Notes: generated from the sequence alone by a model not told the origin. DNA of 62,332 bases from a bacterium (GCA_021781555.1 JAJXWQ010000010.1:1-62332); one strand, 5' to 3'; counted from the stretch's first letter, positions 1,345 to 59,250 are shown. Numbers and translations are program-made.

Positions 1345-3012
1345 TTGCGGCCGTATCTGGGCGCTCTGGTCCTCGGGCTGGTGTTTCTCCTTGGCAGCGC
1401 ACTGTCCAGCCTCGGGGCCATCCCGATCGCTCGCCAGTCGGCCTTCGTATTCGCTCAGCTGGCCAAGCGATCGCCCGGAGCATTGCGAGAACTCGATCTG
1501 CTGGCTCTGGCGGGTGTCGCCCTGTACTTCGCCAAGGGCCTGTGCAGCTACCTGCAGAATCTGATCATGGCCCACGTCGGTCTGCGGGTCGTACGCGACA
1601 TCCGTTCGGCCGTCTTCGCCGCGCTCCAGCGCCAGGGGCTGTCGTTCTTCACTCGCTTCCGGCAAGGCGACCTGGCCTCGCGGGCCGTGACCGACGTGAC
1701 GGCGCTTCGCGATGCCATCGTCCTCGGCTACTCCGATCTGCTGCCCAACGTCCTGGTCCTGGTCGGTGCGCTGGCCTACATCGTCTGGGTCAACTGGCAC
1801 CTCGCCCTGCTCACCATGCTCGGCCTCCCGCTGGTCGGGACCGTGCTCACCCAGTTCAGCACGCGGCTGCGACGGTGGTCGCTGGCGATCCAGCGCCAGG
1901 CTGCCGACATCCTGACCACCATGACCGAGAATCTGGCCACCTTGCAGGTCGTCAAGGGCTTTGGCCGCGAGGATTTCGAACAGGCGCGCTTCGATCAGGC
2001 CAATGATCGCCATTTCCTGGCGGCCTTTCGCGGAGCTCAGGTCCAGGCGCTCCAGACCCCCCTGGTTGCCTTTCTCCAGACCTCGGCGATCGCGGGGGTG
2101 CTGTGGGTCGGCGGGTGGGAGATCTTCCACGGGCGGCTGGCCGTCGCCGACCTGCTGGCCTTCGGTGCGGCGGTGGGCGTGAGCATCGATCCCGTCCTGG
2201 CGGTGAGTTCGGCCTGGGGCCGCATCCAGCAGGCCAGCGGGGCACTGGCGCGGGTCTTCGAGATCCTGGACGCTCCGCCGGAAGGCCAGGATGCCCCCGA
2301 CGCCATGGTTCCGGACCATTGCTCTGGGGGGATCGCGATGCGCGGCGTCCGCTTCGCCTATCCGCGGGGCCCCGAGGTCCTGGCGGGAGTCGACCTGGCG
2401 ATCCATGCCGGCCAGATCACGGCGCTCGTGGGGCCGTCGGGCGGCGGCAAGAGTACCCTGATCGGCTTGCTCTTGCGGTTCTACGATCCGACGAGCGGTG
2501 AGATCACGCTCGACGGCGTGGCCCTCGGGCAGCTCAAGGCCGCCTGGCTTCGCCAGCAGGTCGGATTCGTGCCGCAGGATCCGGTTCTGTTCTACGGGAC
2601 GATCGCGGACAACGTGGCCTTCGGCAAGCTGGGGGCGAGCCGCCAGGAGATCGAGGAGGCCTGCCGGGCAGCCTCGGCACACGAGTTCATCGCGGGGCTC
2701 GAGAATGGTTACGAGACCCTCGTGGGCGAGCGGGGTGCGGCACTTTCCGGAGGCCAGCGCCAGCGGCTCGCCATCGCACGGGCCTTGATCCGGGATCCCC
2801 GGGTCCTGTTGCTCGACGAGATCACGTCCGCCCTCGATCCGGAGTCCGAGGCGGCCATCCGCGATTCGCTCCTGGCCCTGCGCCAGGACCGGGCCATCGT
2901 TGCCGTGAGCCACCGCCCGGCGATCGTGGAGGTGGCAGACCAGGTCATCGAGATCACCAATGGCGTCGTGACCCGGGTCGAGCTGCGGCAGCCTGTTGCC
3001 GTCGCGCCCTAG
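1345..3012 (+). CDS. MsbA-type ABC exporter (fused permease and ATPase)
   Basis: This is a 555-residue half-transporter. An N-terminal six-helix membrane domain (about residues 1-300) is followed by an ATPase with Walker A GPSGGGKST (about 363), signature LSGGQRQR (about 467), Walker B VLLLDE (about 489) and a SHR H-loop. It presumably flips a lipid-linked substrate or exports a glycolipid. The start is uncertain: TTG at 1345 is used here, but an in-frame CTG at 1321, right after the previous stop, would give the more typical N-terminus LLKRLFPFLRPYLG. The TAG stop lies inside the CTAG that begins a 108-bp repeat, so any transcript runs directly into that hairpin. Confidence 0.9.
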   Translation: MRPYLGALVLGLVFLLGSALSSLGAIPIARQSAFVFAQLAKRSPGALRELDLLALAGVALYFAKGLCSYLQNLIMAHVGLRVVRDIRSAVFAALQRQGLSFFTRFRQGDLASRAVTDVTALRDAIVLGYSDLLPNVLVLVGALAYIVWVNWHLALLTMLGLPLVGTVLTQFSTRLRRWSLAIQRQAADILTTMTENLATLQVVKGFGREDFEQARFDQANDRHFLAAFRGAQVQALQTPLVAFLQTSAIAGVLWVGGWEIFHGRLAVADLLAFGAAVGVSIDPVLAVSSAWGRIQQASGALARVFEILDAPPEGQDAPDAMVPDHCSGGIAMRGVRFAYPRGPEVLAGVDLAIHAGQITALVGPSGGGKSTLIGLLLRFYDPTSGEITLDGVALGQLKAAWLRQQVGFVPQDPVLFYGTIADNVAFGKLGASRQEIEEACRAASAHEFIAGLENGYETLVGERGAALSGGQRQRLAIARALIRDPRVLLLDEITSALDPESEAAIRDSLLALRQDRAIVAVSHRPAIVEVADQVIEITNGVVTRVELRQPVAVAP

Positions 3013-3116
3013 GCCTTTTGCAGTTTGAACGGGTCCCTCTGCGCGGTCGCTTCGCTGCGCAACCGGGCCCCGTTTGACTCATCGGGCTCGATCCATTCAA
3101 ACCGGGAGCACTCTAG
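3009..3116 (-). repeat. CTAG-bounded 108-bp repeat, copy 1 (full length)
   Basis: Full copy, 108 bp from CTAG (3009) to CTAG (3113-3116), in the orientation opposite to the copies at 9789, 9893 and 16100. Symmetric GTTTGAA arms sit about 10 bp inside each end and the centre holds the imperfect palindrome TGCGCGGTCGCTTCGCTGCG. The left CTAG contains the TAG stop of the ABC exporter. No reading frame is seen in it. Confidence 0.9.
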
Positions 3117-3157
3117 GCGCGCGTTTCTTTCGCGCTGCCGGAGCTGGCCGATCAGGC

Positions 3158-3163
3158 TATCAT
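3158..3163 (+). promoter_or_regulatory. Candidate -10 box for a leaderless GT2 mRNA
   Basis: TATCAT lies 7 bases before the ATG at 3171. A start point 6-7 bases downstream of the -10 would fall on that ATG. The same spacing is seen before pdhA and other genes here. The -35 region (CTGCCG, 17 bp upstream) is weak. Confidence 0.45.
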
Positions 3164-3170
3164 GAAGGGC

Positions 3171-4013
3171 ATGGCCGCTCGGTTCGACGTCGTCATCGTC
3201 TCTTTCAACACGCGCGACCTCCTGCGTGACTGTCTGACGGCGCTGGAGGCAGACCCGGGCGTGCCGTTCCGCGCCATCGTCGTCGACAATGCCTCATCGG
3301 ACGGCTCGGCGGACATGGTTCGCCAGGAGTTTCCCAAAGCTCGCGTCTTGCCGCTCGACCGCAACCTCGGATTTGCCGGGGGCACCAACCGAGGCCTGGC
3401 AGAATCCGATGCCCCTTACATCCTCCTGCTCAACAGCGATACCCGGATGCGCCCCGGGGCGCTGGCCAAAATGGCAGGATGCTTCGAGCAGGATCCCCGA
3501 GCGGGGCTGGTCGCGGCCAGGCTCCTCAACGCCGACGGTTCCTGGCAGCCGTCGTGCGTGCCCGCGCGCTTTCCCTGGTCCTACCAGAGCCCGCAGCGAG
3601 CCGAGCGCCTGCTGTGGGCCAGCGGGGCGGCCCTGGCGATACGCCAGGAGTGTCTCTTGGCGGTCGGCGGCCTTGACGAGGAGTTCTTCTACACGGGGGA
3701 GGACTGCGACTGGGGCTTGCGGGTGCGTCGCGCCGGCTGGCGCGTCGCTTTCTGCCCCGAAGCCGAGGTCGTGCACCTCGGGGCCGCATCGCGTCGGCAC
3801 GTGCCCCGGCAGTGTGCCGAGGGCGTCCATTTTGGCCGGCAGCACTTCTATGCCAAGCACTTCGGGAGCCTGGGGCTGGCCTACGCGCGCCTGCACTCCT
3901 CGGTCGAGCTCACCGGCGTGGCCTTGAAGGGACGTGGCAGCGATCGCCAGTTCGCCCTGGGCCTCCTGCGTCGTACCTGGGCCTACGCGCCGCGGCGCTC
4001 ACCTCGGGCATGA
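3171..4013 (+). CDS. Family 2 glycosyltransferase (rhamnosyltransferase-like)
   Basis: A GT-A fold enzyme of about 280 residues. It has the typical start FDVVIVSFNTRDLL, a nucleotide-binding VDNASSDGS segment, NLGFAGGTNRG and a divalent-metal LLNSDT motif, then a late GEDCDWGLRVRRAGW acceptor-site motif. This pattern is typical of WbbL-like enzymes that add rhamnose or similar sugars to O-antigen or cell-wall glycans. An in-frame ATG at 3162 overlaps the putative -10 box, so 3171 is preferred. The stop overlaps the next gene's start (ATGA at 4010), which implies translational coupling with the CPBP protease. Confidence 0.88.
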   Translation: MAARFDVVIVSFNTRDLLRDCLTALEADPGVPFRAIVVDNASSDGSADMVRQEFPKARVLPLDRNLGFAGGTNRGLAESDAPYILLLNSDTRMRPGALAKMAGCFEQDPRAGLVAARLLNADGSWQPSCVPARFPWSYQSPQRAERLLWASGAALAIRQECLLAVGGLDEEFFYTGEDCDWGLRVRRAGWRVAFCPEAEVVHLGAASRRHVPRQCAEGVHFGRQHFYAKHFGSLGLAYARLHSSVELTGVALKGRGSDRQFALGLLRRTWAYAPRRSPRA

Positions 4014-4852
4014 GCGAGAGTCCGGCTGTCGCATCAGCGGAACCGGCCGGGCCGCAGGTAGCCGGCCGGGTGCGCCTGCTCCAGTATTTCGGGCTGGTCG
4101 TGCTCTCGTTGGCCGTCTGGGTGGCCTTGCTGCTTGCGGCCTTCGGCAAGGGCCCGGCGGTCCTGCTCCACGCCGGGCGGCTTCCAGGGACCGCGATCGT
4201 ACTGTACGGCACGGGCCTTTACGTCATTCTCCTGGGAGCCGCCGCATGGGTGTGGACCCGGGACGGCGGGCGGATACCCTTCGTTTTTTCCGGCCCAAAG
4301 CTCTTCGAGGGCCTCGCGGTCGGAGGCGTGAGCCTGGCGGTGCTCCTCGGCGTCCAGGCGGCCCTCGGTTGGATCTCGATGCGGACCGGAACCCGACTGG
4401 CGCCGGTCGAGGTGCTGTCGGCGGCCGCCGTGGCCATGGCCTTTGCGGTTTCGGAGGAGATCCTGTTTCGGGGGTTCATCCTGGGTCTGCTGGCGCGAGA
4501 TTTGCCTCCCGGGGCGGCCATCGTCGCGAGCGCGGCGATCTTCGCGCTCGCCCACTTCCTTCACCCCCTCGACCTTCGCTCCGTGGCGTTGCCGTTCATC
4601 GGCCTGCTCTGCGCCGGAGCTGTCCTGGCCTCGATGCGTCTGCGGTCCCGCTCGCTCTGGCCAGGGGTAGGCCTGCACGCCTCCTGGGTCTGGTACATCA
4701 CGGTCACGGGCCAGACTCGCCTGCTGGCCTTGCACGCGCCGGCCTGGACCCAGGCCGGGAGTCTGGCGGCCAATCCGCTGGCCCTGGCGGCGCTCGGGCT
4801 GATCTACCTGTGGTTCCGGAGACGCTATCCGGCGCGGTCCTCTTCCGCCTGA
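4010..4852 (+). CDS. CPBP-family intramembrane metalloprotease
   Basis: The 280-residue protein has about eight hydrophobic segments. It carries the diagnostic motifs of the CPBP/Abi (type II CAAX prenyl endopeptidase) family: EEILFRG (near residue 149), a downstream FALAHF histidine motif, and a third hydrophilic motif near GVGLHASW with the second histidine. Bacterial members cleave membrane substrates or act in bacteriocin immunity or protein processing; the substrate here is unknown. The ATG at 4010 overlaps the previous TGA. Its last 28 bases overlap the tail of the convergent XRE gene. Confidence 0.88.
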   Translation: MSESPAVASAEPAGPQVAGRVRLLQYFGLVVLSLAVWVALLLAAFGKGPAVLLHAGRLPGTAIVLYGTGLYVILLGAAAWVWTRDGGRIPFVFSGPKLFEGLAVGGVSLAVLLGVQAALGWISMRTGTRLAPVEVLSAAAVAMAFAVSEEILFRGFILGLLARDLPPGAAIVASAAIFALAHFLHPLDLRSVALPFIGLLCAGAVLASMRLRSRSLWPGVGLHASWVWYITVTGQTRLLALHAPAWTQAGSLAANPLALAALGLIYLWFRRRYPARSSSA

Positions 4853-5340
4853 TCTCGACAACCTTGTGGAGCGCAGAGCTCGAGGAAGATATCCTCCAGA
4901 TCGCGCAGGATGCGCCGGCGGGACGTGCGGTCCCGGTACCAGAACTGCCCGTCCTTCCGCGGATCGATCTCACCCCAGTCGATGCGCGAGACCCGGCGGA
5001 GAATTTCAAGCTCCCCTTCTGTCGGGCTCTGGGTGATGTCATCCGGCACGAGGAACTCCTCAGCGGAGTTCCACACCGACCGCTTGCTCCCGTCCATGAC
5101 CGCGAGCAGATCGTCCCGGATCAGCCCCAGACCCGCAGCCAGTGCGTCGATCTTGTCGATCGTCGGCCGCGGTGGGCGACCGGTGTTCGGGTTGACTCCG
5201 GCCTCGAGCTTGGCGATGTAGGATGCGGATAGCGCGAAGCCGGCCCGCCTGGCCCGAACCGAAACGGCATCTCTCGAGAAGCCCAGCTCGTGACGCCGTC
5301 GCGTGATGAATTCGCCAAGGTCTTCGGGCGTGCTACTCAA
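4825..5340 (-). CDS. XRE-family helix-turn-helix regulator (paralogue A)
   Basis: A 171-residue protein. Residues about 8-85 form an XRE/Cro-type HTH: FITRRRHELGFSRDAVS, then SASYIAKLEAGVNP with the recognition helix. The C-terminal part (about 105-160) is not a domain I can name, but it resembles the same region of the XRE gene at 23730: an ELEILRR stretch, then RRRILRDLEDIFLEL against RRWIFFNLENFVHTV. It is convergent with and overlaps the CPBP protease. The upstream region holds an unusual AT-rich island with an inverted repeat that could be its operator, and a 108-bp-family repeat beyond that. DNA binding is confident; target and effector are unknown. Confidence 0.85.
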   Translation of the reverse strand: MSSTPEDLGEFITRRRHELGFSRDAVSVRARRAGFALSASYIAKLEAGVNPNTGRPPRPTIDKIDALAAGLGLIRDDLLAVMDGSKRSVWNSAEEFLVPDDITQSPTEGELEILRRVSRIDWGEIDPRKDGQFWYRDRTSRRRILRDLEDIFLELCAPQGCRDQAEEDRAG

Positions 5341-5410
5341 GATGCGTTGAGTCTCTATTCGAAGCGTGAGGAACGGTCCCGCAAGGGACCCTTATATGTT
5401 AAATTATCCC

Positions 5411-5446
5411 CAATACACTTCGGTAAAAATCTCACGCACTGTATTG
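5411..5446. promoter_or_regulatory. Inverted repeat, possible XRE operator
   Basis: CAATACA (5411-5417) and TGTATTG (5440-5446) form a perfect 7-bp inverted repeat with a 22-bp spacer, about 70-105 bp upstream of the minus-strand XRE start. The position and symmetry suit a dimeric repressor site. This is inference from layout only. Confidence 0.4.
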
Positions 5447-5482
5447 CAACGAGTTATGCGGGTTTTTCAGGGCAGCTCGCTT

Positions 5483-5568
5483 TTAGACCTTTTGCAGTTT
5501 GAACGGGTTCTACTGCGCGGTCGCTTCGCTGCGCAACCGAGCCGCGTTTGACTCCCGCGGACCGATCC
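5483..5568 (-). repeat. Dispersed repeat, copy 2 (diverged)
   Basis: Begins TTAG (fits YTAR) followed by the conserved right end, cagtttgaacgg, and the central palindrome, then drifts after gtttgactc. It has no recognisable far-end CTAG. It lies between the XRE gene and dnaX. Confidence 0.8.
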
Positions 5569-5612
5569 TTTTCCACGCGAAAGCGCAAATGGCAAGCCGT
5601 CGGGCCCCATGA

Positions 5613-39601: not shown

Positions 39602-40525
39602 TCAGGCTGCGAAGGCGATCCCCTCGTTCCAGCCCTGGTAGGCCATGTACTGCTGGAGCTGCGCCGTGCTGATCGAGATGGCGCCGATGTGCGAGAGGGG
39701 ATCGTCGATCGTCACCCGATCCCCGCTCACGCCGGTCACCACGATGAAGTGGCCGCCCGAGAACGGGTAGTACTGCTGGCTCGAGAAGCCCGTATTGTAG
39801 GCAGCCGGATTTCCCGAAAGCACGACCAGCTGTCCCGCCGACACGGCCGCCTCGACCTGATCCACGCTGCTGACCTTGGCTCCCGAGAGCCCGTATTGCT
39901 GACCGGCGGAAAGGATCTCGTCCGGCGTGGTCAGGCCGTTGTGGTCATCCGCACCGGTCATGGTGTAGCGCACCTGGTCGATCAGGGCCTCGGCATCCGG
40001 CTCGGACGGTGCCTTGCCAAAGGCCTTGAGCACCATCGCCAGGGAGGTCGGACCGCAGTCCGCAGTGGTGGCAGGGGCATCTGGATTGAAGCGCGAATCG
40101 TGAAGCTGGCAGATGAAGTACGATTGCGGATCCGAGAGGCTGACGGCGGAGCTCGAAGCCCCCACCGGCGCCGGCGCTCCGCCCTGGGAGGCCCCCAGCT
40201 CCGAGATCGTCGACAGAACCTGGGACAGGGAGCCCACAGGCAAGGCCTCGATCGCCGAAAGCGCGTCGGCCAGGGGTCCCAGTGGCAAGGGCTCTGGGCC
40301 GGACGACGACGCCGTGCCGACCGCGGCCGAGGAGGCCGAGAAGAAGGGGGCGACGGGCGCCGCAGGTGGCTCGATGGCGGTCTGGTCCCAGGCCATGACG
40401 ACGGGCGGCTGCCAGCCTGTCTGGACCTGCGGGGGCGCCCAGCCACCGCCCGCCCGAACCGAGCCGGTGGCGGACCCTCTGTACAGGGGCCTCGCCCCTG
40501 CACGGGCGACCGATCCGATGGCCAT
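39602..40525 (-). CDS. Papain-like C39-family peptidase domain protein
   Basis: A 307-residue protein. The C-terminal domain (about 135-300) has the bacteriocin-processing-like cysteine protease triad: TTADCGPTSLAMVLKAFG (Cys), GGHFIVVTGVSGD (His) and DDPLS (Asp). No ABC transporter is attached, so it is a stand-alone member. The first 130 residues are low-complexity Pro/Ala/Ser with no classical signal peptide; the start MAIGSVARAGARPLY resembles that of the protein at 49099. The ribosome-binding site GGAGG (40531-40535) precedes the ATG. It may cleave a surface or exported peptide; unproven. Confidence 0.82.
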   Translation of the reverse strand: MAIGSVARAGARPLYRGSATGSVRAGGGWAPPQVQTGWQPPVVMAWDQTAIEPPAAPVAPFFSASSAAVGTASSSGPEPLPLGPLADALSAIEALPVGSLSQVLSTISELGASQGGAPAPVGASSSAVSLSDPQSYFICQLHDSRFNPDAPATTADCGPTSLAMVLKAFGKAPSEPDAEALIDQVRYTMTGADDHNGLTTPDEILSAGQQYGLSGAKVSSVDQVEAAVSAGQLVVLSGNPAAYNTGFSSQQYYPFSGGHFIVVTGVSGDRVTIDDPLSHIGAISISTAQLQQYMAYQGWNEGIAFAA

Positions 40526-45094: not shown

Positions 45095-46045
45095 ATGCCG
45101 CTGGAAGTGAACGAACTGTCCCGGAACTCGCGGGGCGGCACGGAGCTGATGCTCGGCTGGCTCTACGAGAGCATCGAACCGACCCTGCTCGAGCCCTTTC
45201 AGATCATTCCATCACGGGTCCGCGCCCTCGAGCCCGACAAGATCCGCATCCTCTGGATGCACCTGGCCGCCCACCACGCGGAGGCCCGGCACCTGGCGGA
45301 CGGCGGATGGGCCCGGTTCGACAAGATCGTCTTCGTCTCCAACACCCAGATGCAGGCCTTCATCGCGAGGTTCGGCATTCCGTGGTCGCGCTGCGCGGTC
45401 ATGCAGAACGCGATCGAACCCATCGAGCCGCATACCAAGCCCGCCGGGGCCACCCGGTTGATCTACACGTCCATGCCCGACCGGGGCTTGGTGTTGCTCG
45501 TGCCGGTTTTTGACGCGCTCTGCCACAAGTATCCCGAGCTCGAGCTCGAGGTCTTCTCCTCGTACCGGCTCTATGGCTGGCCCGAGGCCGATGCGCCGCT
45601 CAAGCCCATCTTCGACGCCTGCCGGGCCCATCCGCGCATCCACTACCACGGCGCGGTGGGTAATGCCGAGGTCCGCGAGGCCCTCAAGACCGCCCACATC
45701 TTCGCGTATCCTTGCATCATGCTGGAGCCGGCTCCGCTCACCTTGATGGAAGCAATGTCGGCCGGACTGCTCTGCGTGCACCCCAACCTCGGCGGGATGT
45801 ACGAGATCGCCGCCAACTGGACCCACATGTACCCGTGGCACGAGGATCCCGCGGCCCATGCGCAGCGCTTTGCGGTCGCCCTCGACGCCGCGATCGCCGC
45901 TCTTTGCGAGCCGGCTACCCAGGAGCGCCTGGCCGCCCAGAAGCACTACGCCGACCTCGTCTACAGCCGCGACCGGCGCAAGCACGAGTGGAGTGCCCTC
46001 CTGACCGATCTCCTCCGCGACGGCCGCATACGGTCGGAGGATTGA
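45095..46045 (+). CDS. Family 4 glycosyltransferase
   Basis: A 316-residue GT-B-like protein. The start NELSRNSRGGTELMLGWL has the GGTE donor-side loop seen near the N-terminus of many GT4 enzymes. Later: KIVFVSNTQMQAFIARFG, RLIYTSMPDRGLVLLVPVF and LEPAPLTLMEAMSAGLLCVH with the EX7E-like pair. At about 316 residues it is shorter than usual because the first Rossmann domain is small. It lies after the GH63-type gene; both could act on the same glucoside. The tandem 16-bp array lies just after its stop. Confidence 0.87.
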   Translation: MPLEVNELSRNSRGGTELMLGWLYESIEPTLLEPFQIIPSRVRALEPDKIRILWMHLAAHHAEARHLADGGWARFDKIVFVSNTQMQAFIARFGIPWSRCAVMQNAIEPIEPHTKPAGATRLIYTSMPDRGLVLLVPVFDALCHKYPELELEVFSSYRLYGWPEADAPLKPIFDACRAHPRIHYHGAVGNAEVREALKTAHIFAYPCIMLEPAPLTLMEAMSAGLLCVHPNLGGMYEIAANWTHMYPWHEDPAAHAQRFAVALDAAIAALCEPATQERLAAQKHYADLVYSRDRRKHEWSALLTDLLRDGRIRSED

Positions 46046-46063
46046 CCCGGACACGATTATCTC

Positions 46064-46110
46064 GGCTACATATTATCCGGGCTACATATTATCCGAGCTA
46101 CATATTACCC
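46064..46110. repeat. Three tandem copies of a 16-bp AT-rich unit
   Basis: Units start at 46064, 46080 and 46096: GGCTACATATTATCC, then GGCTACATATTATCC, then AGCTACATATTACCC. The array lies between the GT4 stop and the convergent YD-repeat gene stop. It shares the block TCTCGGCTA with the array at 39322. Confidence 0.8.
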
Positions 46111-46117
46111 AGACTAA

Positions 46118-46963
46118 CTATTTGCCAGGAGATCCCTCGAGGCCAGCGCCGGCCTTCTTCTCGCGGAAGACCTTTCCCTGGGCGTCCATCCAGCGCTCGG
46201 CCACGATGTTTCCGACCGCATCGTAGGTGTTCTCCTGGCGTAGCGTGAGGCGGTCCAGCGCCCCGAACGACTCGATGCGAGAAATCCGGCCCTGGCTGTC
46301 GTAGAGGAAGTGCATGCGGCTGCGCCGCTTGCCATCTGGCCCCTTCCAGATGCGATCGCTGACCCGGCCCTGCTTGTCGTAAGCTATCTCGAGCGTGCCG
46401 ACCGCGTTGCCATTCTCGTCGGTCCGGGCCTCGGCGACGATCTCCCCCTTCTTGTCGTAGCGATAGCTGAGCTGTTTGACCCGCTTGCCATCTCCGTCCG
46501 TCCAGGTCTCGCTCTCGAGCAGGCCATCGCCGCTGTAGGCCGACGTGATCGCGTAGAAGAGCTTGCCATCCCAGTTATACTCGCCGCGCCACGTCAGCAG
46601 GCCGGTCGCGGTGTCGTAGGTATAACGATGGTAATTCCACACCACGCCTTCCTCGTTGAGCCACAGGGACTCTGCGACCTGAAAGCCATCGTAGCGGTAG
46701 AGCCGGATGTTGATGGGCTTTTGCGTACCCTCGCCGAACTTCTCGAGCCGCAGGCATCGCCCCATCGAGTCGAGGTGGTGCGTCTGATGCTCGGCGGGAA
46801 GCTTGTCTCCCTTGACCTCGACCACCCCCACCACGCGGCCGAAGCGATCGATGCGGCCCGAGCGGAAATGCCGCACCGACGCCAGCTCCGGGTCGATCTC
46901 GGCGATCCACTTGGCCAGGGGCAAGACCACGGGGGACGACGCCACAGTTGTCTCCTTCGTCAA
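46118..46963 (-). CDS. YD/RHS-like repeat protein
   Basis: A 281-residue protein with no signal peptide. From about residue 90 it has seven or so roughly 25-30-residue repeats of the YD type (YTYDTATGLLTWRGEYN, YRYDKKGEIVAEARTDENG, IAYDKQGRVSDRIWKGPDG, FLYDSQGRISRIE). These would form a small beta sheet or partial shell as in RHS proteins, but there is no toxin tail. The start is TTG, overlapping the TGA of the radical SAM gene (TTGA at 46960-46963). As the last gene of a four-gene operon it may be a substrate or partner of the radical SAM enzyme. Confidence 0.78.
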   Translation of the reverse strand: MTKETTVASSPVVLPLAKWIAEIDPELASVRHFRSGRIDRFGRVVGVVEVKGDKLPAEHQTHHLDSMGRCLRLEKFGEGTQKPINIRLYRYDGFQVAESLWLNEEGVVWNYHRYTYDTATGLLTWRGEYNWDGKLFYAITSAYSGDGLLESETWTDGDGKRVKQLSYRYDKKGEIVAEARTDENGNAVGTLEIAYDKQGRVSDRIWKGPDGKRRSRMHFLYDSQGRISRIESFGALDRLTLRQENTYDAVGNIVAERWMDAQGKVFREKKAGAGLEGSPGK

Positions 46964-48810
46964 AAGTACTGCTGGGTGGGCATCACCAGGTGCCGCATGC
47001 TGCGCTGGGCAACCCAGGCGCTGCCAAACCGTGACAGGTACAGATGGATGTTCTCACGGTAGCGCAGGAAGAACCAGAGGCCGTAGTCATAGGCCTCGGC
47101 GCAGCGGCTGGTGCAGATCTCCATCACCTCCCGGAGTTCTTCGTCAGGCATCCCCTGGCGGTCCCGGTACGACAGGTTGGTCGACAGCTCCTGGGTATCC
47201 TCCACGACATCCACCAGCCCCAGGGCCTCCCGGTCGGCATATAGCGGCGAGTGCTTCCCGAGGGTGAACACCGAGCGACCGTACGACTGGATGATGTCGG
47301 TATGCTGGCGGATGATGTCGACGGTCTCCAGGGCCTCGTCGAAGGTCTCGGTCGGGAACCCGAAGAAGATGTAGGCGAAGTTCCAGATCCCGGCCGCCGC
47401 GGTGCCCCGCAGGACCTCGAGCCGCTTGTCGAAGGAAACGCCCTTGCGGATGAGCTTGAAGATCCGCCGGGAGCCCGACTCGAAACCCCACAGGATCATC
47501 TGCAGGCCAGCTTCGTGCAGGAGCTCCATCAGATCGGGGCTAAAACGGCTCTCGAGGCGTCCATTGCAGAACCATCGGATATCCAATCCCTCGGCCAGGA
47601 AGCGTTCGGCCATGGCCCGCAAGCGGACCGGGCTGATCGCCTCGTCGATGAACTGGAAGTGCCGGACCCCGTAGCGGTCGCGCAGGTGCTTGATCTCCGC
47701 CACCAGCTGATCGATGCCCTTGGTGTCTGGCTTGACCCCGACGAACGAGTCACAGAAGGTGCAACGGCCCCAGTAGCAGCTCTTGCCCGCCTGGATCGTG
47801 AGCACCAGCTCCGGCGTCAGATAGAGCTCGAGCGGCAGGCCCTCGAGATCCTGCACACCGACCACGTCCAGTTGCGGGGGCTCTGCCTCCGGCGTCACGA
47901 CGACCGTGCCCTCGCGATGGACCAGCAGGTTCGGGACGAGGGCGAGATCCGTGCCCTCGTACACCGCCCTGACCAGATTGAGGACCGTCTGCTCCCCCTC
48001 GCCGAAGGCAACACTGTCGGCGAATTCGGCAAAGAAGGCCGGCAGCGAGGAAAGCGTCTCCTTGAGCCGCGAGAAGAAGTTGCCGCCGATGCTGACGTGG
48101 AGATCCGGGGCGGCGATCTTGAGCAGCCGAGCCAGGGTCAAGCCCGGAAGCACCTGGGAGAAGGAGTTGATCGAGATGCCGACCGTATCCGCCTGCTCGG
48201 CCAGCAGCGAAGGAATCTGCTCCTCGAAGAAGGCATAGAACATGTTGTTGGGCGCGTCTTGGGCGTGCGCAGCCAGACTCTCGACGGTGAGCGGGCAGGT
48301 GGGTTGCTCGAAGTCGTTGAGCGAGATGCGGGCCGGATAGAAGGGCAGCGACACGATCTCGAGGGCCCGATCGAGGATGCTCATCGCCGCCACGAGGGTA
48401 TCGGGGTGGTAGAAGCGCTCCGGATCGCGCATCACCGACCTGGCATCGGCGATCACGCTGGCGATCCGGCCGAGTTCCTTGGGATGCACCTCGTGCCACC
48501 GGGCCCAGATATTCTGACGCGCGACGTCGCGCTCCATGGCCGGAGTGACGTTGCCGAGAGCCTTGGCGAGCGGTAGCTGCGACCACAGGTACCGCTTCTG
48601 CGTCTCGATGCGGGAAGCCGTCGCCACGAGGTAGTCGCGGGTCAAGACCCGATCGTAGAACTCGATATTGAGATCCCGGACCGAAGCCTCGGCGCCGTTC
48701 GCACGCAGATGCCCCGCAATCGCCCGCAACGAGAAATGCGGGTTCTGCGGTGACCACTGCGGGGGAAAGACGACGAGGGCCTTGGGGCCGGACCCCCTAC
48801 CTCGAGGCAC
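46960..48810 (-). CDS. B12-binding-domain-type radical SAM enzyme
   Basis: A 616-residue protein. The N-terminal third looks like the cobalamin-binding Rossmann domain of this class (KALVVFPPQWSPQNPHFSLR ... VGISINSFSQVLPGL, VSIGGNFFS), though the B12 histidine motif DxHxxG is not evident. The radical SAM domain has CYWGRCTFC near residue 350, a C-x4-C-x2-C spacing rather than the usual C-x3-C-x2-C, then FIDEAISP and the GFESGSRR segment. GTG 48810 is chosen because GAGGG precedes it and the longer frame overlaps the upstream gene. It overlaps the coiled-coil gene by 14 bases and the YD gene by 4. The product is unknown; similar enzymes modify peptides. Confidence 0.83.
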   Translation of the reverse strand: MPRGRGSGPKALVVFPPQWSPQNPHFSLRAIAGHLRANGAEASVRDLNIEFYDRVLTRDYLVATASRIETQKRYLWSQLPLAKALGNVTPAMERDVARQNIWARWHEVHPKELGRIASVIADARSVMRDPERFYHPDTLVAAMSILDRALEIVSLPFYPARISLNDFEQPTCPLTVESLAAHAQDAPNNMFYAFFEEQIPSLLAEQADTVGISINSFSQVLPGLTLARLLKIAAPDLHVSIGGNFFSRLKETLSSLPAFFAEFADSVAFGEGEQTVLNLVRAVYEGTDLALVPNLLVHREGTVVVTPEAEPPQLDVVGVQDLEGLPLELYLTPELVLTIQAGKSCYWGRCTFCDSFVGVKPDTKGIDQLVAEIKHLRDRYGVRHFQFIDEAISPVRLRAMAERFLAEGLDIRWFCNGRLESRFSPDLMELLHEAGLQMILWGFESGSRRIFKLIRKGVSFDKRLEVLRGTAAAGIWNFAYIFFGFPTETFDEALETVDIIRQHTDIIQSYGRSVFTLGKHSPLYADREALGLVDVVEDTQELSTNLSYRDRQGMPDEELREVMEICTSRCAEAYDYGLWFFLRYRENIHLYLSRFGSAWVAQRSMRHLVMPTQQYF

Positions 48811-49084
48811 GGCCCTCTTTCTCCCTGCCGGCGCGGGCCGCCCGCGCCGCCCGCACGTAGGCCTGCAGCTCCACGATGATGGGAAGCATTCCCTCCATGC
48901 GGTTCTTCCGGATCTCGGCAAGCATGGCGTCGTGCTGCCGGAGCTTTTCGCGTACCTGGGCGCGATCGCCGCTGATCTTGAGGGCGATCAGGTTCTCGTG
49001 AAGTTCGCGTTCGCGGGCGAGCAGCTCTTGATAGCGGCGCGCCCGCTCCTCGACTTCATCCGGGGTCAGGGGAAGCTTGTCCAA
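48797..49084 (-). CDS. Small coiled-coil protein
   Basis: A 95-residue, highly charged protein that is almost entirely helical (DEVEERARRYQELLARERE, then KLRQHDAMLAEIRKNRM). It ends with an Ala/Arg-rich tail. The start is TTG at 49084. It lies 14 bases after the proline-rich gene and overlaps the radical SAM gene, so it belongs to the same operon. A role as adaptor or scaffold is only a guess. Confidence 0.72.
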   Translation of the reverse strand: MDKLPLTPDEVEERARRYQELLARERELHENLIALKISGDRAQVREKLRQHDAMLAEIRKNRMEGMLPIIVELQAYVRAARAARAGREKEGRASR

Positions 49085-49098
49085 GCGACTACCGCCCC

Positions 49099-50034
49099 CT
49101 AGCTCGAGATGCCAGTGCCAGGGCCGACGGAGATCCGGGTGTCGCCCGCACTGTAGGCCGGAACCGCGCCAGCCTCGAGCGGCGGCGGAGTGCCGGGAGC
49201 ACCCTGCGTGCCGGTACCGGCGGAGCCACCACCGGTGCTCGGTGCGTTGTTTCCAGCCTCTTGCGCCGCGAAGACGGCAGCGGCTTGCTTGGCATTCGCC
49301 GCCGCATCGGCCTGCTCGCGCTCCCTGTCCTTGTTGGCCTCCGCAAGGGCGTCCATGACGACGTTGAGGGAGCCCTCGCCCATGCCGGCGCCCGGAGTAC
49401 CGAGGGACTTGACGTCGACTCCTGCCGAGCTGAGGGCCTTGGAGAAGTCCATGTCTCCCATGTCGGCGACGCCGTTGCCGTTGGTGTCGACCATGATGGT
49501 GTCGCCGGTGGCGGGATTGACCAGCGCCGCATGGCCGTCGACCGTGGTCTGCGTGGCATCGATCCCGTAGTCAGCCTTGAGGTCCTTGGCCAGGGAGGAG
49601 AAGGACATCCCGATCAGGCCCTTGCCGGCGTGGGTCTTGAGTTCGGAGTAGACGGCCGTCGCCTCGCTCTCCGTCATGGAGTAGCTCTTGGAGGCCCCCA
49701 TACCGGTTCCGCCCTGCACCATGATCTTGGGATCCGGCGGCGGCGGCGGCGGCTCAGGCTGTGTCACCTGCTGCGGCGGCGGCGGCGGCGGCGTGGGATT
49801 GGGATCCGGCGCGCCGAGCTGCATCTTGGCTGGCTGCTGTGGCGGCGGCGGCGGCATGGGGTCCATCGGCTTGGGAATCATGGGATCTTCGGGTGGCTTC
49901 TGGTTGGGATCGAGCGCCCCCAGGCCCCCGTCGAACGCGGTGCTCGACGTGCTCTGCGCCGCCGAGTTGCGACTGACGGTCGTCGTGTAAAGGGGATTGA
50001 CCGAGCTCCCCGATGTCGTCGATCCGACTCCCAT
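49099..50034 (-). CDS. Proline-rich protein with an EF-hand-like loop
   Basis: A 311-residue low-complexity protein. Residues about 45-105 are runs of proline (seven or so in a row, with PDPN and QQ spacers). A folded middle (about 115-215) has SMTESEATAVYSELKTHAGK, DGHAALVNPATGDTIMVD and DTNGNGVADMGDMD, a calcium-loop-like Asp-rich stretch. The tail is Ala/Gly-rich. No classical signal peptide; the start MGVGSTTSGSS...PLY resembles that of the C39-like protein at 39602. ATG 50034 with GGGAGGTG upstream is better than GTG 50043. First gene of the four-gene operon. Function unknown. Confidence 0.75.
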   Translation of the reverse strand: MGVGSTTSGSSVNPLYTTTVSRNSAAQSTSSTAFDGGLGALDPNQKPPEDPMIPKPMDPMPPPPPQQPAKMQLGAPDPNPTPPPPPPQQVTQPEPPPPPPDPKIMVQGGTGMGASKSYSMTESEATAVYSELKTHAGKGLIGMSFSSLAKDLKADYGIDATQTTVDGHAALVNPATGDTIMVDTNGNGVADMGDMDFSKALSSAGVDVKSLGTPGAGMGEGSLNVVMDALAEANKDREREQADAAANAKQAAAVFAAQEAGNNAPSTGGGSAGTGTQGAPGTPPPLEAGAVPAYSAGDTRISVGPGTGISS

Positions 50035-50060
50035 GAGTTGCACCTCCCGCCACGTGTAGA

Positions 50061-58302: not shown

Positions 58303-59250
58303 ATGGTCTGGTCTGCCCGAGTTACCCGAGGTCTTCTTGCCGCCACCTTTGCTGTGGCGCTGGCAGGGTGCGGCACGGCCGGCACGGATCTCGGCACCAG
58401 CGCCTATGGATCGGCTGGCTATGGCTCCGGCCTCAGCTCCGGCTCTGGCTACGGTGCGAGCGACGCCCAGGTGGGCGTGGACACCAACATCATGGAGCTC
58501 AACTCCGCTGGCGATCTCAGCAGCCTCAGTGACGCCGACCTGATGTCCCTCGACAACGCGGCGGATGACAACGCCGCACCGGTCTCCGCATCCGACCCCA
58601 CGGTTCAGGCCCTTGCGCAGATCCCGACCAACGTCAGCCAGACGGCGGTCACCGGGCCCACGATGACCAAGGTCGGCATCGTCCGATCCAATGCGAACGG
58701 CCAGTTCTTCCTGCAGATCAACAAGGGCTTCCTCTGGTGGCAGACGCAGGTTTCCTTGCCTCTTGTCGCCCCGGATACCAACACCGACCTGCGCATCGCG
58801 TCCGATCTCAACTGCAAGGTCATCATGCGGGGTACCGAGGATGGCAACGCCTGCCTGGTGCACCTGATGTTCAAGGTTCCCGATTTTGCGGTCATCTGGG
58901 ACCTCTTCACCGAGGGCCACATCGCCGGCAAGGCCTACGATACTGCCACGATGGCGGGATTGCCGGACGCCAGCATCACGATCAAGAATGATGCCAACGG
59001 CCGCATCTGGCGCGCAGTCACCCACGGCGATGGCTCGTACAGCGTGGGAGAACTCGTTCCCGGCGTGTACGACGTCTACGCCACGGCTGCCGGCTACGGA
59101 TCCGCGCCAGATCAGCAGATCACGGTCAGCAAGATGCACACATCGACGGTCAACCTCGCGATGGCCTCCGCGATGGCGTGCGGTTCGATCCAGAATCCTT
59201 GCCCGGCCCAGCCGAGCCCCTCGCCCGCGGCTCTGCTACCGACAGATTAA
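58303..59250 (+). CDS. Lipoprotein with a carboxypeptidase-regulatory-like domain
   Basis: A 315-residue predicted lipoprotein: hydrophobic signal LLAATFAVALAGC with the lipobox ALAGC. After a Gly/Ser linker comes an unrecognised middle domain (about 90-205) ending FAVIWDLFTEG. A beta-sandwich module at about 206-290 (GHIAGKAYDTATMAGLPDAS ... GDGSYSVGELVPGVYDVYAT) matches the carboxypeptidase D regulatory-like fold. These are common in envelope proteins. ATG 58303 follows GAGAGGAG; the frame extends to 58279. Function unknown. Confidence 0.82.
   Translation: MVWSARVTRGLLAATFAVALAGCGTAGTDLGTSAYGSAGYGSGLSSGSGYGASDAQVGVDTNIMELNSAGDLSSLSDADLMSLDNAADDNAAPVSASDPTVQALAQIPTNVSQTAVTGPTMTKVGIVRSNANGQFFLQINKGFLWWQTQVSLPLVAPDTNTDLRIASDLNCKVIMRGTEDGNACLVHLMFKVPDFAVIWDLFTEGHIAGKAYDTATMAGLPDASITIKNDANGRIWRAVTHGDGSYSVGELVPGVYDVYATAAGYGSAPDQQITVSKMHTSTVNLAMASAMACGSIQNPCPAQPSPSPAALLPTD

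Follow-up and report, generated by a model that had tools for sequence, protein, structure and literature searches.

In a 62,332-nucleotide stretch of bacterial DNA (the window), which is contig C144 of a 3.8-Mb draft genome, four minus-strand genes form a cassette around a radical SAM enzyme. The cassette is real, conserved and apparently undescribed. Judged by sequence, it is common to non-photosynthetic relatives of the Cyanobacteria and to a small number of bacteria assigned to other phyla. Its core is a triad in which the enzyme is joined by a small helical protein (CC) and by a protein with an EF-hand-like loop (PRO), to which a YD-repeat protein (YD) is a probable lineage-specific addition. 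The best explanation of the whole, to which we give even chances, is a dedicated post-translational modification system in which the enzyme would modify PRO, CC would serve as adaptor or chaperone, and YD would be accessory.

Organization of the cassette

ORF analysis of the window places PRO, CC, the radical SAM enzyme and YD in a single minus-strand operon. PRO (49099-50034, about 311 amino acids) starts at the ATG at 50034, a GTG being present at 50043; a gap of 14 bases (49098-49085) separates it from CC (48797-49084), a 95-residue predicted helical hairpin with a TTG start at 49084. The enzyme (46960-48810, about 616 amino acids) combines a predicted cobalamin-type Rossmann N-terminal part, a radical SAM core and a helical C-terminus. 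Its longest ORF begins at a TTG at 48921; because homologues start near 48810, however, the GTG at that position is most likely the start, giving an overlap of 14 bases with CC. YD (46118-46963) is a 281-amino-acid YD/RHS-repeat protein (RHS_repeat, PF05593; 30.2 bits, cut-off 22), whose TTG start at 46963 overlaps the enzyme stop codon within the TTGA at 46960-46963. Coordinates and strand thus agree with the coupled operon of the initial annotation, including its gap and both overlaps.

A scan for promoters and terminators gave matches little above chance level. Outside the cassette lie a dnaE-like gene upstream, named from sequence, and a glycosyltransferase gene (45095-46045) on the other strand, converging on YD; between these convergent genes is a tandem repeat (46056-46107, period 16, 3.3 copies, consensus ATTATCCGGCTACAT). 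Further off, a C39-peptidase-like gene (39602-40396; PF13529, E 1.3e-13) lies at a distance of about 6 kb. The protein encoded at 58471-59250 has a carboxypeptidase-regulatory-like domain (PF13620, E 6.9e-15).

PRO and CC are named by no Pfam, NCBIfam or PADLOC model, and PADLOC returned zero matches to known anti-phage defence for all four proteins. In the openly licensed literature we found no paper on the cassette, including in searches combining Sericytochromatia, Gastranaerophilales or Melainabacteria with radical SAM. The earlier proposal of an undescribed coupled cassette around a B12-type radical SAM enzyme is supported.

The radical SAM enzyme

The enzyme matches the Pfam Radical_SAM model (PF04055) with 57.9 bits against a cut-off of 29.5 (E 1.9e-15), and the B12-binding model (PF02310) with 19.8 bits (E 7e-4), under the cut-off of 32.1. 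Its structure is predicted with a pLDDT of 87.9 and a pTM of 0.89, and a fold search of the PDB with this model retrieves TsrM, OxsB, MgmA (9ccb), AprD4 and CysS; identity to the solved cobalamin-dependent enzymes is low in the fold alignments (14-20%). The predicted fold is that of a cobalamin-dependent-type radical SAM enzyme, which presumably binds cobalamin. The proposed [4Fe-4S] cluster motif is CYWGRCTFC (47752-47778, minus strand), and its three cysteines, spaced Cx4CxxC, are invariant in 20 aligned homologues. This spacing had initially been called unusual. It is constant within the family and, in a profile alignment, shared by OxsB, and is therefore not distinctive; a review describes spacing exceptions of the radical SAM motif as 'not unusual' (PMC8992657). 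We have dropped it as a novelty.

No NCBIfam cut-off is passed by the enzyme. The best score, from a match that covers both the cobalamin-type and the radical SAM part, is to the RiPP-maturation C-methyltransferases of TIGR03975 (111 bits, E 5.7e-32; cut-off 281.85), followed by the PhpK-type P-methyltransferases of TIGR04479 (109.5 bits; cut-off 600); the MgmA model TIGR04014 is matched with 57.4 bits (cut-off 360). Named relatives come from Candidatus Tanganyikabacteria, from Cyanobacteria MAGs, from Gastranaerophilales, and from MAGs labelled Chloroflexi and Armatimonadetes. In a maximum-likelihood tree of 40 enzymes, all 33 that have partners form one clade with a support of 100/100; the seven partnerless relatives fall outside it. 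Relatives with the enzyme but not the partners are those of class family f6 (L040-L044), L032 and L033.

PRO and its helical partner

The N-terminal half of PRO is proline-rich and of low complexity (proline-rich stretch at 49729-49911), and is followed by a conserved alpha/beta domain that carries the EF-hand-like loop. What PRO proteins conserve is this domain, which is small and folded, together with a GxGMG segment and a DxNGNG loop. The segment (GTGMG in the window, 49696-49710) is kept in most close relatives and absent from that of L025. In the alignment of window-type PRO proteins (A2), the first Asp, one Gly and the last Asp of the loop (DTNGNGVADMGD, 49453-49488) are invariant; in that of PRO family 2 of the Gastranaerophilales (A8), DANGNG is invariant. 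No Pfam EF-hand model is matched by the window protein, and Gastranaerophilales relatives match such models weakly (best E 0.011-0.016). By its sequence, the loop is calcium-binding-like.

In two loci, G003 and L025, PRO and CC are a single ORF, with CC fused to the C-terminus of PRO. The G003 fusion, modelled with 13 sequences, has a mean pLDDT of 69.3 and a pTM of 0.39; residues at about 121-222, which reach values near or above 90, fold into a small alpha/beta domain, whereas the model shows a disordered N-terminus and, for CC, a long helical hairpin. Proline richness belongs to the variable, predicted-disordered N-terminus of PRO; in G003, the part corresponding to the proline-rich stretch is predicted to be disordered. 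The fusion gave zero PDB fold matches at E 0.001, and PDB sequence searches with the PRO and CC profiles gave weak matches only.

Distribution in Sericytochromatia

Assignments to Sericytochromatia, as which we take the class, and to Gastranaerophilaceae, as which we take family f9, are our own. Profile searches of 18 class genomes detect a close enzyme in seven, and YD in the same seven. CC (6/18) and PRO (5/18) occur exclusively among these genomes, and those missing CC or PRO despite a close enzyme, two of the seven, are the ones with contig-end cuts; in G001 and G004 the cassette lies on contigs cut by their ends. In the 11 class genomes without a close enzyme, none of PRO, CC and YD was found. 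By tblastn and ORF comparison, all four genes occur together in G002, G003, G005, G009 and L024; G002 holds two cassettes, in one of which YD was undetected, and in G009 YD sits on the other side of PRO. L025 and L026 carry parts of the cassette. PRO relatives adjoin the enzyme in G002 (both cassettes), G003, G005, G009, L024-L026 and L031. Two genomes that are distant from each other also have, close to the cassette, homologous genes of about 455 amino acids with 56% identity (L034, 7455-8834; L026, 3749-5107).

The triad in Gastranaerophilales

Across the phylum, the enzyme is detected at E 1e-100 or better in 29 of 386 genomes. In about 20 Gastranaerophilales loci the enzyme gene stands side by side with one for a small helical protein and one for a third, mostly loop-bearing protein at the position of PRO. 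The small gene encodes 106-136 amino acids, is nearly always on the enzyme's strand and mostly lies within about 20 bases; at L092 it is correctly placed, yet outside the CC family. The PRO-position protein (267-524 amino acids, mostly with an EF-hand-like loop) usually lies within about 170 bases. In many of these loci PRO is on the strand opposite to the enzyme, so co-transcription is not universal. With a pattern that was chosen after the sequences had been seen, 22 of 26 partner proteins have an EF-like loop; among the other genes of at least 200 amino acids at the same loci, the count is 1 of 193.

The partners also follow the enzyme at the level of genomes. The CC and PRO profiles of the lineage matched nothing in 11 Gastranaerophilaceae genomes that look complete and do not have the enzyme; among 11 enzyme-bearing genomes searched alongside, CC is matched in 10 and PRO family 2 in eight, and those without family 2 carry PRO family 3 or 49. 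The Gastranaerophilales loci, where the enzyme and both partners are present, yielded no YD, and for this reason the triad is taken as the core. YD, which we dropped as a core gene, would be accessory to the Sericytochromatia-type cassette. The neighbourhood search that the initial annotation had suggested, with lack of co-occurrence elsewhere counting against a unit, thus found the genes together across genomes; the unit stands, but with three core genes rather than four.

What is more difficult to judge is whether the partners of the two lineages are homologous. In profile comparisons, about 48 columns round the loop align between window-type PRO (A2) and Gastranaerophilales PRO family 2 (A8), with E 1.2e-5 and a probability of 81%; the two CC families do not align, and single CC members give weak matches across them. 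By position and by loop the triad recurs, and common descent of the window and Gastranaerophilales partners is only partly shown by these alignments. Because the PRO profiles align at the loop only and the CC profiles not at all, part of the resemblance of the Gastranaerophilales triad could be analogy.

A putative modification system and its alternatives

In the mechanism that we favor, the cobalamin-dependent-type radical SAM enzyme would most likely methylate, or otherwise radically modify, an unreactive carbon in PRO. CC would be the adaptor or chaperone by which PRO is presented, perhaps while still unfolded, and YD would be a lineage-specific accessory. We infer PRO as the target because of linkage, co-occurrence, the PRO-CC fusions and extra PRO copies. 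More than one copy per single enzyme is present at L079, L080, L089 and L090, and a third copy in G002 (C16, 12967-13746) is unlinked, no enzyme or CC being found in the surrounding stretch (L095); such copies are as expected for substrates. On the other side, the PRO families do not all share a single conserved modification site, and L028 has a second enzyme with no separate PRO next to it. The fold and the relatives of the enzyme suggest cobalamin-type chemistry, in most cases methylation; against methylation, OxsB and AprD4 among the fold matches are non-methylases, and TsrM is described as a non-radical methylase. The initial annotation had named the proline-rich and the YD protein as candidate substrates. 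PRO remains one; YD is an unlikely substrate, since it was not found in the Gastranaerophilales loci. That YD is modified, with PRO and CC as accessories, is extremely improbable: YD overlaps the enzyme stop codon and is present in every class genome with a close enzyme, but the triads of the Gastranaerophilales keep the loop protein and the small helical protein, YD not being found there.

Possible, though not probable, is a role of PRO as a calcium-responsive partner or scaffold of an enzyme that acts on a small molecule, a lipid or another protein. Within PRO, conservation is highest in the loop, and the small-molecule enzymes OxsB, AprD4, TsrM and CysS are among the solved structures nearest in sequence and fold; however, a substrate is the better fit for PRO proteins that occur in several copies per enzyme and have long, variable, disordered regions, and no further biosynthetic gene is conserved beside the triad. 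It is highly doubtful that PRO is the large precursor of a RiPP-like pathway, the modified part of which is cut off and released. The enzyme's best NCBIfam score and the C39-peptidase-like gene of the window would agree with it, but that score is far under its cut-off, the peptidase-like gene is distant and was not noticed at other loci, and the triad is not repeatedly accompanied by genes for a peptidase, a transporter or leader recognition; moreover, PRO proteins have about 270-520 amino acids and a folded domain.

A further reading, which we consider rather unlikely, holds that PRO is exported via a flagellar or type III-like apparatus, with CC as the export chaperone and the enzyme modifying PRO before export. 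Most PRO proteins are without a hydrophobic N-terminal segment. At L083 (G227), a run of FliN-, FliP-, FliQ- and FliR-type genes (1684-5610) ends beside a convergent cassette, and at L028 a PRO relative (4024-5598), which contains Pro/Ala/Val repeats and ends in a LysM domain, lies near a flagellin-N gene (587-1426); the LysM end suggests an extracytoplasmic location of this relative. Among 28 Gastranaerophilales genomes, the 12 with a high-scoring FHIPEP type all carry the enzyme as well, but five enzyme-bearing genomes are without this type and the pattern tracks genera. FHIPEP genes as such are near-universal (17/18 class genomes, 28/28 Gastranaerophilales); their presence is not specific, and we rejected it as proof of export. 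The full-length FHIPEP genes of the Gastranaerophilales fall into two score classes, the higher of which occurs only together with the enzyme in this sample. Export of PRO is a guess. Still broader, and decidedly unlikely in our estimate, is a cross-phylum class of protein-modification systems: proteins with EF-hand-like loops would be modified by a cobalamin-type radical SAM enzyme together with a small helical adaptor, and would afterwards leave the cell, possibly via such an apparatus.

Comparison with known systems

To our knowledge, few cobalamin-type radical SAM enzymes that modify large proteins have been described, examples being Mmp10 and MgmA, which both act on methyl-coenzyme M reductase, and we know of no link of OxsB, TsrM, CysS or TokK to a PRO-type protein partner; all four are relatives of the enzyme by sequence, and OxsB, TsrM and CysS also by fold. 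The best parallel to the proposed modification of PRO by the window enzyme is MgmA. According to excerpts of the MgmA report, this B12-type radical SAM enzyme methylates a Gln of a large protein, methyl-coenzyme M reductase, acting on a peptide stretch probably before folding, and its gene clusters with the substrate operon in some methanogens (PMC11796369). In its predicted structure the window enzyme matches the B12-type radical SAM fold of MgmA, and its proposed target is likewise a large protein encoded nearby; the partners of MgmA are different, however, its model is missed by a wide score difference, and the excerpts report no CC-like adaptor. The cassette is unlike TIGR03975 systems in the length of its partner protein and in having no processing genes, and it differs from the PhpK family in its gene partners.

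If the favored interpretation is true, the cassette would be a further, distinct system of enzyme and partner that recurs, comes with natural fusions and offers multiple candidate substrates for one enzyme, in lineages, the Sericytochromatia and the Gastranaerophilales of the gut, whose cell biology is poorly known. The pairing of enzyme and partner would make a direct test by mass spectrometry feasible.
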